Assembly: GCA_029863245.1 (NCBI GenBank)
Contig: JAOTVV010000002.1
Location: forward strand, 1 to 64,000
DNA: 64,000 nt
Direction: 5' to 3'
Origin: Gemmatimonadota bacterium
Lineage (GTDB): Bacteria > Gemmatimonadota > Gemmatimonadetes > Gemmatimonadales > GWC2-71-9
Position numbers and translations under genes: made by a program. Shown piece by piece: positions 1-3,982 of this stretch (within the stretch, counting starts at the first letter, position 1; every line of letters begins with the position of its first letter). The notes below the pieces were generated by a model, which was not told the DNA's origin, ran no database searches, and saw only the letters and a program-made list of their open reading frames with translations.

Positions 1-546
1 TGCTAGCGGACGGGCCGCATTCGTTGACGGCGACGGCGACGGATGTGGGGGGGACGAGTCCGGCGTCGACACCGGCGGTGACGTTCACGGTGGATACGCA
101 GGCGCCGGCGGCGCCGGTGATCACGGCGCCGACGAGTGGCAGCGTGACGAATGACAATACGCCGACGATCAGCGGGACGGCGCAGGCGAATGCGACGGTG
201 GCGGTGTTTGACGGGGTGACGTCGTTGGGGACGACGGTGGCGACGGGAGGGGCGTGGGCGTTGACGCCGGCGGTGCTAGCGGACGGGCCGCATTCGTTGA
301 CGGCGACGGCGACGGATGTGGGGGGGACGAGTCCGGCGTCGACACCGGCGGTGACGTTCACGGTGGATACGCAGGCGCCGGCGGCGCCGGTGATCACGGC
401 GCCGACCGAAGGGCAGACCGTCACGACCGCAACCCCCACGATTACCGGTACGGCGGAGGCGAACGCGTTGGTCGAGGTGTTTGACGGGGTGACGTCGTTG
501 GGGACGACGGTGGCGACGGGAGGGGCGTGGTCGCTGACGCCGGCGG
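1..546 (+). repeat. Tandem 273-bp (91-codon) repeat units
   Basis: The 7-mer tgctagc and its surroundings recur at 1, 274 and 547, giving an exact 273-bp period. Units 1-273 and 274-546 look identical at nucleotide level except for a divergent patch (134-202 against 407-475) and a few substitutions near 534. A third copy is cut short after 547 where the gene ends. Identity including third codon positions points to recent duplication or gene conversion; more units probably lie upstream. Confidence 0.9.
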
Positions 547-647
547 TGCTAGCGGACGGGCCGCATTCGTTGACGGCTGTGGCGACCGACGCAGCCGGTA
601 ACAGCAGCGCCGCGTCCACGACCATTAACTTCACGGTGTCTGTGTGA
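1..647 (+). CDS. C-terminal end of an Ig-like repeat surface protein (5' truncated by window)
   Basis: The reading frame is open from the window edge to a TGA at 645-647, so only the last ~215 residues are visible. It consists of Ala/Thr/Val/Pro-rich repeats of 91 residues with phrases such as VDTQAPAAPVI, TPTISGTA and VEVFDGVTSLGT, typical of bacterial Ig-like (BapA/Big-type) domains in large adhesins or secreted repeat proteins. The end (AASTTINFTVSV) is a last beta-strand; no LPXTG or type IX sorting domain follows, so the export route is not shown. The start lies outside the window. Family-level assignment is good; the ligand or function is unknown. Confidence 0.8.
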   Translation, partial: LADGPHSLTATATDVGGTSPASTPAVTFTVDTQAPAAPVITAPTSGSVTNDNTPTISGTAQANATVAVFDGVTSLGTTVATGGAWALTPAVLADGPHSLTATATDVGGTSPASTPAVTFTVDTQAPAAPVITAPTEGQTVTTATPTITGTAEANALVEVFDGVTSLGTTVATGGAWSLTPAVLADGPHSLTAVATDAAGNSSAASTTINFTVSV

Positions 648-723: not shown

Positions 724-2283
724 ATGATCTGCCCCCGCTGCTCCGTCGCGGAGATCCCCGAGGACACGCACGAGTGCCCACTGTGCGGGTTCACGCCGTC
801 GACGAACGTGCTCGTCGAACAGGCCATCGTCGACGAGGCGCGCCAGGCGGTACAGCAGACGCTTGCCGATCGGTTCCGCATCGAGCGCGTCCACCGCCTC
901 GGGCAGCGCTCGTTCGTCTATGTGGCCCGCGAGCTGGAGGCCGACCGCGACGTCGCGCTCAAGGTGATCCCCGTAACCCATTTGGTGGACCACGAGCTGG
1001 CCAAGCGCTTCGAGCGCCACGCCGGCATCGCGGCCTCACTCCGCCACGCCCATATCGCGCCGGTCCTCAGCTACGGCGTCGCACGGTCGTTCCTGTGGTA
1101 CTCCATGGAGTTCTTCAGCGCGCGGTCCCTCGAAGAAATCTTGAGGGAAGCGGGGGCCATGGAGCTCGAGAGTTGTCTGCGGATCGCGGAACAAGTGGGG
1201 AGCGCGCTCGACTTCGCTCATCGGCGCGGAGCGGTGCACGGCAACCTCAAGCCCAGCAACATCCTCGTCGACGACCGGGGTTGGGTGCGGGTCATCGATT
1301 TCGGGATCAACGAGGTGTTTGGACGCCCACGGCCGGCCAGGGGCAGTGCCCCAGTGCTCCACCTGGCCGAGTACCTGGCGCCGGAGCAGTTCTACTCGCG
1401 CTCGGTCGGGGCGAGTGCCGACCAGTACGCGTTCGGCGTCGTCGTGTACCAGTGTCTCGCTGGGAGCGTCCCGTTCCTCGGGGACTCGTTCGAAGAGGTT
1501 GCCCGGCTCCATGCGACGGAACCGCCTCCGCGCCTCTCGGACGTTCGACGGGATCTTCCTGTGAGCGTCATGGAAGCCGTCGCACGAGCGCTCAGCAAGC
1601 TACCGGCAGGGCGGTTCCCGACGGTCCTCGACTTCACCGCGGCCCTCAGTGGGGCTCCACGGCGGACTGCGCCTCACGACACTGTGGCGCCGGCTCCGCC
1701 GCCGTCGGACACACCGGTCCTCGTCGTGGACGAACCCGCCAAACGGCTCACGCCCGCGCGGGTGACGCTCGGCAGCGTCCTGCTCGCGATCACAATCGCG
1801 GTCGCTCTGCTGCTGTGGAATCCCGAGTGGTTTGCCTGGACAGCGCCGCTCCTCGACCGGGCGCGAAGCATGGTGGCACCGGAGGCCGCACGGAACGCCA
1901 CTCTGCAGGAGCCGCAGTGGGAGACGCTCGATCCGGTGTCGCAGTTCGGCAGGCCGGCGACGGTCCCGGCAGCGCCCGAAGAGACCGCCGACCCGGTGGA
2001 GCTGCCTCCGCGTGCAACGGTCCAGACTGCACCACGTGCCCAGACCGCAGCTCCGCCGCTGCAGCCCGGTCGGCTGTTCGTGAACGCGTCGCCCTGGGGG
2101 GAGCTGTATCTCGATGGCCAATTCATCGGTAACACCCCCAAGGCCAACCTCGACCTGAGCCCCGGCCGTCACACGATCCGGGTCGCGCGGGACGGATTCG
2201 AGCCGTTCGAGCGACAACTCGACGTCGCCTCGGGGCAGGTGATCCGACTGACCGATATCGTGCTCGTTCCGCGGGATCGATGA
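724..2283 (+). CDS. Zinc-ribbon / protein kinase-like / PEGA membrane protein (possible pseudokinase)
   Basis: The 519-residue protein has an N-terminal zinc ribbon (CPRC ... CPLCG, residues 3-22), a Ser/Thr kinase-like domain (about 45-310), one membrane helix (about 346-365), a Pro/Ala-rich linker and a C-terminal PEGA domain (about 448-519). The VALK lysine (K80), DFG (D192) and APE motifs are present. The catalytic-loop HRD is HGN (172-174): the expected catalytic Asp is Asn, and the glycine loop is weak (LGQRSF). Phosphotransfer is therefore doubtful and a scaffold or sensor role is plausible. The PEGA end is predicted to be periplasmic. The next gene overlaps by 4 nt, so the three genes to 3982 probably form an operon. 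Confidence 0.88.
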   Translation: MICPRCSVAEIPEDTHECPLCGFTPSTNVLVEQAIVDEARQAVQQTLADRFRIERVHRLGQRSFVYVARELEADRDVALKVIPVTHLVDHELAKRFERHAGIAASLRHAHIAPVLSYGVARSFLWYSMEFFSARSLEEILREAGAMELESCLRIAEQVGSALDFAHRRGAVHGNLKPSNILVDDRGWVRVIDFGINEVFGRPRPARGSAPVLHLAEYLAPEQFYSRSVGASADQYAFGVVVYQCLAGSVPFLGDSFEEVARLHATEPPPRLSDVRRDLPVSVMEAVARALSKLPAGRFPTVLDFTAALSGAPRRTAPHDTVAPAPPPSDTPVLVVDEPAKRLTPARVTLGSVLLAITIAVALLLWNPEWFAWTAPLLDRARSMVAPEAARNATLQEPQWETLDPVSQFGRPATVPAAPEETADPVELPPRATVQTAPRAQTAAPPLQPGRLFVNASPWGELYLDGQFIGNTPKANLDLSPGRHTIRVARDGFEPFERQLDVASGQVIRLTDIVLVPRDR

Positions 2284-3338
2284 TCCGGCCGCGCATCTGG
2301 CTGCTCGCTGTCTGCGGAGCCTTCCTCCTGGCGGAGCCGGCCGCCGGGCAAGGATCCGGGGAGCTCGTGCAGCGGGGTATCCAGGCCTATCGGGATCTCG
2401 AGCTTCCGACGGCCGTCGGGCTCATCCGCCGAGCGTTGGCGGCACAGGGTGACGACACACTCCCCGAACCCGCACGACTGGAGGCGCTGAGCTACCTGGG
2501 GGCGGCGGAGTTCGTGCGAGGCAGAAACGATTCGGCGGCAGCCGCCTTTCGTCGCATCGTCCAGCTGGACCCGCGATATCGCCTCGACCCTCTGGTCTTT
2601 CCACCGGAGCTAACGGCGCTCTTTGCGAGCGTGAGGCGTGACACGAAGGTGGTGGAGGCCGAGCTCCCCGCCGTAGCGACCATTGCCGCCGGATCCGGGG
2701 AGTTCGCGCCTCGGCTGTTTGCCAGCTCGTTTCACGAGGTCCGGGTGACCATCGAGCGAACCGACGGCGTGCCGGCGCGACAGGTCTACGAGGGGCTCAT
2801 CTCCGACAGTCTCGAGCTGCGGTGGGACGGACTCGATGCAACCGGTGCGCCCCTGCAGAGTGGCCGCTACGTGCTGGCGATCGAATCACGACTCGCCTCG
2901 GGCCAGGTCGTGCGCATCCTGCGGGTGCCACTCGACATCGAGTCCAACCCAGCCGATACCGTGGATCATCCTCCACTACCACCGGATTCGTTGTTCCTCC
3001 CCGAACGGGTGACTCGCGGTCCGGGGCTCGAGGCTCTCGTCGGCGGATTGGTCGGTGGTGTGGGGATCGCGGTCCTCCCGCTTGTCGTGGCGCCCGATGC
3101 CGATCTGTCGGCCGGCAGGATCGCCGTGGCCGGCACCGTGGCGCTGACGGGTGTGATCGGCTTCTTCAAGCAGCGACCCGGCCGCCCCATCGCGGCGAAC
3201 GTCCGAGCCAACGAACTGCTGCGGCAGGATTGGCGGGCGCGAGTCGGTGAGGTCGCGCAACTGAACGCCGGGCGGCGATCGATCGCGGAGATCGTGGTGC
3301 GTGCCGGGCCGCCCACCGTGATTGACGTGGCGCGCTGA
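2280..3338 (+). CDS. Exported TPR-like protein with FlgD-type Ig-like segment
   Basis: The start (ATGA) overlaps the previous stop by 4 nt, indicating translational coupling. A signal peptide covers about residues 1-23 (LLAVCGAFLLAEPAAG). Residues ~25-115 form helical TPR-like repeats (AYRDLELPTAVGLIRRAL, FRRIVQLDPRYRLDP). Residues ~150-225 resemble the FlgD/BACON-like Ig fold (WDGLDATGAPLQSGRYVLAIE). One or two hydrophobic segments follow near 250-300 (LVGGLVGGVGIAVLPLVV and IAVAGTVALTGVIGF). I do not recognise a named family. Coupling to the kinase-like protein and the barrel-like protein suggests a joint envelope function, which is inference. Confidence 0.75.
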   Translation: MIRPRIWLLAVCGAFLLAEPAAGQGSGELVQRGIQAYRDLELPTAVGLIRRALAAQGDDTLPEPARLEALSYLGAAEFVRGRNDSAAAAFRRIVQLDPRYRLDPLVFPPELTALFASVRRDTKVVEAELPAVATIAAGSGEFAPRLFASSFHEVRVTIERTDGVPARQVYEGLISDSLELRWDGLDATGAPLQSGRYVLAIESRLASGQVVRILRVPLDIESNPADTVDHPPLPPDSLFLPERVTRGPGLEALVGGLVGGVGIAVLPLVVAPDADLSAGRIAVAGTVALTGVIGFFKQRPGRPIAANVRANELLRQDWRARVGEVAQLNAGRRSIAEIVVRAGPPTVIDVAR

Positions 3339-3982
3339 TGTGCCGTCTCCTGCAAAACGTCAGTGTGCTTGCCATGGTGGCGCACGCACTCGCGAGCCCA
3401 ACCGCCGCGCAGGGATTCGGTGGTGAGGTCCGGGCTGTCGTAGGGTTTCCGACGGTGAATCGCGAGGCACTGGCGACGGTCGATCGTCTGACGGGGACCG
3501 CCTTCGGTCTCGATGCGGGAGTGCGATTCTGGCGTCTCGAGCTGACCGTACGGTATCTCCAGGGTCCCCTCGAGAGCAGCATCGATCAGACCAAATCCGA
3601 TCTGGTACAAGGCACGGTGGCGCTCCAGGTGCGACCCATCGACTTCCTCACCGTCGGCATTGGCCCGCAGGCTCGAAGCTACATCTCGGAGGGCGGAACC
3701 GAGCGGTGGCTCGCGTGGGAGGGTCGGCTGGGTGTGGACACGTGGCTGCTCCGACCCGCCCTCAGGAGCGCGCTGGTGTTGTCGTACGCGCTGGGCGGCA
3801 GCGTGAATACCGGGTCGGCCTTTTCCAAGGGGGGCAGCATCGAGGGCAGGCTCGAGGCCCGAATCCCGCGCACTCCATTGTGGGCCGCCGTCGGCTACCG
3901 CGTCGAACACGGATCGTTGGGCGCGAACACCGGTACCGACACCCTCGAGGAATTCCTGCTGAGTGTGGCGGTCGGCCGCTGA
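3338..3982 (+). CDS. Predicted outer-membrane beta-barrel-like protein
   Basis: The 214-residue protein begins in a TGATG overlap with the preceding gene. It has a probable signal peptide (about 1-24, ending SPTAAQG) followed by alternating hydrophobic/polar strands (VRFWRLELTVRYLQG, LTVGIGPQARSYIS, RSALVLSYALGGS, AAVGYRVEHGSL), and ends in LLSVAVGR. The pattern fits a small outer-membrane barrel. No specific family is recognised. It is the last gene of the kinase-like/TPR/barrel operon and converges with the proline dehydrogenase gene 21 nt away. Confidence 0.65.
   Translation: MCRLLQNVSVLAMVAHALASPTAAQGFGGEVRAVVGFPTVNREALATVDRLTGTAFGLDAGVRFWRLELTVRYLQGPLESSIDQTKSDLVQGTVALQVRPIDFLTVGIGPQARSYISEGGTERWLAWEGRLGVDTWLLRPALRSALVLSYALGGSVNTGSAFSKGGSIEGRLEARIPRTPLWAAVGYRVEHGSLGANTGTDTLEEFLLSVAVGR

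Follow-up and report, generated by a model that had tools for sequence, protein, structure and literature searches.

A membrane-anchored pseudokinase with a PEGA domain in a conserved gene cassette of Gemmatimonadota

Does a kinase-like protein whose catalytic loop reads HGN in place of HRD still transfer phosphate, and, if it does not, what is its kinase fold kept for? We addressed these questions for a gene near the start of a 64,000-nucleotide stretch of DNA (the window; positions 1 to 64,000 of contig JAOTVV010000002.1) from a Gemmatimonadota bacterium (assembly GCA_029863245.1). Few experiments exist on bacterial pseudokinases; one that has been well studied, EssB/YukC, forms the hub of an envelope machine. 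The gene described here belongs to a clade of pseudokinases for which direct comparison is possible, both with close active relatives and with versions of the same operon that carry no kinase gene.

Domain layout and catalytic core

The open reading frame (724–2283, plus strand) encodes 519 amino acids from an ATG start to a TGA stop. An N-terminal zinc ribbon, a kinase fold, a membrane helix and a PEGA domain, the layout given in the initial annotation, are borne out by the four cysteines, by Pfam and by AlphaFold (Table 1). C3, C6, C18 and C21 are all present, with a zinc-ribbon-like UPF0547 match under the Pfam cut-off. A Pkinase match (E = 3.2e-30 over aa 60–259) places the protein in the kinase superfamily (Hanks-type fold). 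The predicted kinase domain has pLDDT values mostly between 83 and 98, falling to low values at about aa 201–210 in the activation segment, and the closest PDB folds to this model are PknB, Stk1 and PknA (Foldseek E values of 1e-24 to 1e-22). The C-terminal match to PEGA (PF08308; 1.5e-10, aa 450–510) scores 41.2 bits against a Pfam cut-off of 20.8, identifying a PEGA protein. The best NCBIfam family is PknB_PASTA_kin (NF033483), at 203 bits against a cut-off of 450. The protein resembles PknB/StkP in having a kinase fold, a juxtamembrane region, one transmembrane helix and an extracytoplasmic β-domain, but it has PEGA for PASTA and has lost catalytic residues; membership of the PknB/StkP PASTA kinase family was ruled out by the low score and by the presence of PEGA without PASTA.

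Table 1 Features of the pseudokinase gene and its neighbours in the window
Feature	Coordinates	Strand	Basis
3′ end of Ig-like-repeat surface-protein gene; 5′ end outside contig	3..647	+	Pfam, NCBIfam; relatives
Pseudokinase gene: zinc ribbon, pseudokinase domain, membrane helix, PEGA	724..2283	+	ORF, Pfam, AlphaFold
N-terminal zinc ribbon, C3-x2-C6 ... C18-x2-C21	724..792	+	Sequence; MxCPRC...CxxCG in most relatives
Pseudokinase domain, aa 47–312	862..1659	+	Pfam Pkinase, AlphaFold, Foldseek
β3 Lys K80, kept	961..963	+	β3 Lys in 25/27 clade members
His99 replacing αC Glu	1018..1020	+	Glu in 42/42 active relatives, 1/27 clade members
HGN replacing HRD, aa 172–174, codons CAC GGC AAC	1237..1245	+	Sequence; alignment of relatives
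DFG, aa 192–194, kept in window protein	1297..1305	+	Clade: DFG Asp 26/27, DFG Gly 5/27
APE, aa 219–221, kept in window protein	1378..1386	+	Sequence, alignment
Membrane helix, predicted, aa 344–365	1753..1818	+	Hydrophobic stretch; helix in AlphaFold model
C-terminal PEGA domain, aa 449–513, periplasm expected	2068..2262	+	Pfam; AlphaFold all-β, pLDDT 91–97
Gene 2: signal peptide, TPR, FlgD-Ig-like domain, two hydrophobic helices	2280..3338	+	Pfam; relatives
Gene 3: signal peptide and predicted 10-strand outer-membrane β-barrel	3338..3982	+	AlphaFold, Foldseek; conserved

The catalytic loop reads HGNLKPSN (aa 172–179), with Asn at the position of the catalytic Asp and with K80, DFG and APE retained, all as the initial annotation had described. 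Pseudokinases are defined by the loss of at least one among the β3 Lys, the HRD Asp and the DFG Asp (PMC12599244); N174 takes the place of the HRD Asp here, and the Lys and the DFG Asp are kept. Losses in the core extend beyond HRD to the first Gly of the G-loop, which is R58, and to the αC Glu, which is H99. K80, K176, N179 and D192 are all retained in the window protein and, given these residues, it may have weak activity or ATP binding; for the suggestion in the initial annotation that nucleotide may still be bound, K80, N179 and D192 speak in favour and R58 and H99 against.

We found 60 Pkinase matches in the host genome (3.68 Mb, 75 contigs). HRD is present in 55 of its approximately 56 distinct readable kinases, the window protein being the sole exception. 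The genome (G000) is very rich in kinases, with about 56 of the Hanks type in 3.7 Mb, several of which adjoin one another, as L026 and L030 do on contig C66.

Relatives, phylogeny and selection

Across 298 genomes from the phylum, the nearest relatives that a search returned have 37–46% identity, several with other HRD substitutions; a search of genome_contigs with the single protein gave no matches. Since kinases cross-match one another, we anchored the wider search on a profile of the next gene (TPR, A1). This profile, applied to 102 family, 288 order and 395 phylum genomes (overlapping sets), recovered some tens of modules, with the upstream gene read in most, not all, of them. The top-scoring modules mostly contain degenerate kinases and others contain intact ones. 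Against genome_contigs the profile matched 18 records, 17 of them Gemmatimonadota MAGs; the only match outside the phylum, in a Myxococcaceae MAG (L214, JAIBBQ010000248.1), covers the TPR part only.

We built a maximum-likelihood tree of 70 kinase domains from which the catalytic loop and the activation segment had been taken out. All 27 degenerate rows lie on one side of a branch with 100/100 support, with no intact row among them (row L176x is an alignment artefact, and that kinase reads HRD). This clade consists of the window protein and 26 relatives from 23 other genomes. The HRD Arg is kept in none of the 27 (Gly in 24, Ala in 3), and the Asp position is occupied by Ala in 14, Gly in 6, Asp in 3, Asn in 3 and Cys in 1. 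The suggestion that the Asn might be fixed across the lineage did not hold: it occurs only in the window protein and two near relatives, which form a subclade (100/96). The αC Glu is retained in 1 of 27 members, the DFG Gly in 5, the first G-loop Gly in 8 and the equivalent of N179 in 17, against 27 of 27 for both the HRD His and the αF Asp, 26 for the DFG Asp and 25 for the β3 Lys. All 42 active rows have K, E, HRD, N and DFG. In the nearest relatives the DFG equivalent reads DAC, DFN or DFA, and in several clade members DPT, DPA or DPS; the activation segment is mostly gone in the pseudokinases of two genera. Intact HRD motifs, which the initial annotation had named as evidence against its reading should they occur in orthologues, are confined to sister lineages and paralogues.

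In a tree of the partner TPR genes, the pseudokinase modules group with eight active ones (100/99) on a poorly supported backbone, and a single pseudokinase clade is not rejected (p-AU = 0.25). The sequences point to a single ancestral loss of catalysis as the likely history; long branches could help to unite the pseudokinases. One member of the window protein's subclade (L071; G157:C1, 7568–9967) is an 800-aa HGN/DFN pseudokinase that does not have a PEGA domain. The same genome, G157, has a TPR cassette elsewhere (L215), beside which only a PEGA protein is readable; it is possible that the kinase part and the PEGA part have become separated in this genome.

The reading frame of the pseudokinase is intact in 24 genomes. 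Kinase-domain dN/dS is 0.15–0.30 in seven pseudokinase pairs and 0.09–0.14 in three active pairs. In every pair it lies below the value for the neighbouring TPR frame, a rough upper value taken from stop-to-stop frames with possible non-coding flank. Because dN/dS is 0.15–0.30 and the β3 Lys and DFG Asp persist, we regard the domain as being under selection; these comparisons indicate a pseudokinase domain that still has a use, with selection on it somewhat relaxed. The clade-wide loss of the HRD Arg and Asp and of the αC Glu, together with purifying selection, gives good support to the proposal in the initial annotation that the protein is a pseudokinase.

The gene cassette and its variants

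The pseudokinase gene is tightly packed with its downstream neighbours. The stop of the pseudokinase overlaps the start of gene 2 in an ATGA at 2280, and a TGATG at 3336 joins gene 2 to gene 3 in like manner. On the upstream side, 76 bases separate the pseudokinase gene from the Ig-repeat gene. Across relatives the gene order is conserved, and the genes overlap or almost touch. A scan of the operon region for promoters and terminators gave nothing over chance level. Gene 2, which is kept beside the kinase or pseudokinase in relatives, has a signal peptide by eye, a TPR_16 match below the cut-off (4.5e-5) and, close to its C terminus, two hydrophobic stretches; Pfam detects FlgD_ig in 8 of 13 members, with values down to 5e-7. 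Gene 3 has no Pfam family. Its AlphaFold model (pLDDT 87) predicts a signal peptide and ten long strands, and its structural neighbours in Foldseek are outer-membrane barrels, among them OpcA (E = 2.6e-6) and pOmpT.

The truncated gene upstream (3..647, plus strand) matches Pfam Big_13 (2.9e-32) and Big_6 (2.7e-12) and, over the cut-off, the NCBIfam Ca_tandemer adhesin repeat (4e-24). In most relatives the upstream gene likewise encodes a repeat protein (Ig, Big_1/invasin, BACON or similar), often 0–5 bases away; in G214 and G301 it is an unrelated AraC-like regulator. Where the start of the repeat protein could be read (G204, G110 and G022), a lipoprotein-like signal is followed by C-x-[LF]-D-x-L. 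The upstream proteins at L070, L074 and L121 have C-x-[LF]-D-x-L-[LF] just past the presumed lipobox, a pattern that may serve in sorting.

What stands at the pseudokinase position varies. It is an active kinase–PEGA protein in sister modules, as it is in the host genome's own paralogous module (G000:C50). This second cassette (L131, G000:C50:7663-10277) comprises an HRD kinase–PEGA protein and a TPR protein, with a PPC-domain protein upstream. HRD kinase–PEGA and TPR cassettes from the phylum, such as G000:C50, G036:C213 and G219:C282, share gene order, domain layout and a homologous TPR partner with the window cassette; they differ in having HRD, DFG and the αC Glu intact and, in some, another secreted protein upstream (PPC-domain or 400-aa barrel-like). 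G333 carries degenerate and active kinase cassettes in tandem (L116, G333:C1:687300-696000), the degenerate one partly masked. A TM-PEGA protein without a kinase domain stands at the pseudokinase place beside TPR and barrel genes in G140 (L216, G140:C77) and, to the extent that masking leaves it readable, in G299 (L129, G299:C201). In G110:C142, G303:C128 and G022:C73 nothing takes its place. At L113, L115 and L121 a kinase gene is missing, and a gene with Ig or BACON repeats runs directly into those for the TPR protein and the barrel.

The lost activation segments and the TM-PEGA-only versions together indicate that catalysis is dispensable to the cassette. Since cassettes without a kinase gene exist, a scaffold role would not be essential everywhere. 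An equation of lost catalysis with the presence of the barrel at first looked perfect and was broken by G036, which has HRD with a barrel; weakly matching barrels also adjoin active kinases. We claim no dependence between the two, and the losses may be one event.

Candidate role and comparison with known systems

We consider it probable that the window protein acts without catalysis as a membrane-anchored pseudokinase, most likely an inner-membrane scaffold that assembles or anchors an envelope complex. Its kinase domain would no longer transfer phosphate, judging from the residues lost, and the fold would be kept as a cytoplasmic docking surface, possibly stabilized by nucleotide. A single membrane helix would join this fold to a periplasmic PEGA domain. 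The pseudokinase, the periplasmic TPR/FlgD-Ig protein and the small outer-membrane barrel may form one complex that places the Ig-repeat (lipo)protein at the surface, in an export or display role. The initial annotation had proposed an envelope-sensing scaffold; operon context and domain layout favour the envelope location and the scaffold, and this support does not extend to sensing.

By analogy, the best reading is that such a scaffold works like EssB/YukC without being one. YukC is a pseudokinase that does not bind ATP and serves as the interaction hub of its type VIIb secretion machine (PMC9600267). EssB/YukC and the window protein are alike in having a cytoplasmic pseudokinase domain, one membrane helix and an extracytoplasmic domain, as would befit the hub of a membrane complex (a role shown for YukC). 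The window protein, however, comes from a diderm phylum, has PEGA in place of the YukC extracellular domain, carries a zinc ribbon and lies in a cassette without T7SS genes; its kinase fold is also much better kept than that of EssB/YukC and is nearest to PknA/PknB. Membership of EssB/YukC (T7SSb) was ruled out by the PEGA domain and by the Ig-repeat, TPR and barrel neighbours. A 2025 review anticipates that other membrane pseudokinases, too, have roles in secretion (PMC12599244).

Pseudokinases are an established class, in bacteria as elsewhere. The ActPs1–3, GLW, CP1, DYD and DLHK families are likewise bacterial, derived from Ser/Thr kinases, deprived of catalytic motifs and, in several cases, membrane-bound (PMC12599244). 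The clade fits none of ActPs2, GLW, CP1 and DLHK, from which it is set apart by their descriptions. ActPs2 shares the change of the HRD Asp to Asn but itself has Arg for the β3 Lys and a mostly deleted DFG (PMC12599244), whereas K80 and DFG are intact in the window protein, leaving the Asn as the only fit. The GLW family has GLW where the window protein has HGN (PMC12599244), which rules out membership. CP1 and DLHK have no TM regions, and CP1 is linked to a COG3899 domain (PMC12599244); the TM helix at aa 344–365 and PEGA rule out both. Neither Gemmatimonadota nor zinc nor PEGA comes up in that review. The JH2 domains of JAK1–3 and TYK2 and the kinase VRK3 also have HGN for HRD with the β3 Lys kept, and the DPG of JAK JH2 resembles the DPT, DPA and DPS of the relatives; their origin is independent, as the closest kinases to the window protein are the bacterial PknA/PknB.

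JAK2 JH2 binds ATP. A comparable nucleotide-gated switch, in which the window protein would bind ATP (with or without Mg) but transfer no phosphate, its bound state setting a conformation signalled to or from PEGA, is a possible alternative that we hold with clear reservation. A switch of this kind has been suggested for the JAK JH2 pseudokinases, where the Lys likewise occurs with HGN, and in JAK1–3 and TYK2 domain 2 retains the β3 Lys with HGN and DPG (PMC2639636). The β3 Lys and the DFG Asp are the most persistent functional residues of the clade, and the N179 equivalent survives in most members; however, the first G-loop Gly and the αC Glu are mostly lost, VRK3, with HGN and a degraded G-loop (PMC2639636), and YukC (PMC9600267) do not bind ATP, and the Lys and Asp may be retained for the fold alone. 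It is unlikely that the TM-PEGA anchor is the useful part and the kinase domain a remnant in slow decay. The TM-PEGA-only versions in G140 and G299, the shrinking activation segments and a dN/dS above that of active relatives would suit such decay, but the domain still evolves at 0.15–0.30, under the TPR frame in every pair, and its frame is open in 24 genomes.

We regard it as improbable that the protein serves an active kinase as allosteric partner or decoy, whether the HRD kinase of G000:C50 or, as in G333, an active copy next to it, to name two examples; the second cassette of the host genome, with its HRD kinase–PEGA and TPR genes, and the tandem copies of G333 fit this role, yet the two cassettes of the host genome lie on different contigs. 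Cryptic activity as a kinase or other transferase despite HGN seems very improbable. Some predicted pseudokinases, CASK among them, proved active (PMC2639636), and K80, K176, N179, D192 and APE are all present in the window protein, but the HRD Arg and Asp, the αC Glu and the first G-loop Gly are lost jointly, and the nearest relatives lose DFG too. We give a negligible chance to a sequencing error, a recent point mutation or a pseudogene: in favour is the draft state of the assembly, in 75 contigs, and against it stand a pattern that recurs across the clade in independent assemblies, an intact frame and purifying selection. Error or recent mutation was ruled out by the 27-member clade with degenerate HRD, and a pseudogene by dN/dS and the open frames.

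Within the literature library that was searched, no paper on the envelope cassette was found, and a search for PEGA kinases or Gemmatimonadetes kinases found nothing relevant. We tentatively suggest, as a possibility we would not yet favour, that the four genes make up a trans-envelope system of Gemmatimonadota, not described before and built on an inner-membrane kinase-fold hub, by which Ig-repeat (lipo)proteins are exported, anchored or displayed, and that the hub kinase of one clade became a pseudokinase by a single ancestral loss, while others kept a TM-PEGA protein or dropped the hub. The comparison among pseudokinases, active relatives and kinase-less operons makes it testable which parts of a kinase fold stay once catalysis is abandoned, and draws attention to an envelope cassette, as yet unstudied, in a phylum common in soil. 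If such a trans-envelope system exists, its variants would provide a graded natural series from signalling kinase to structural part.
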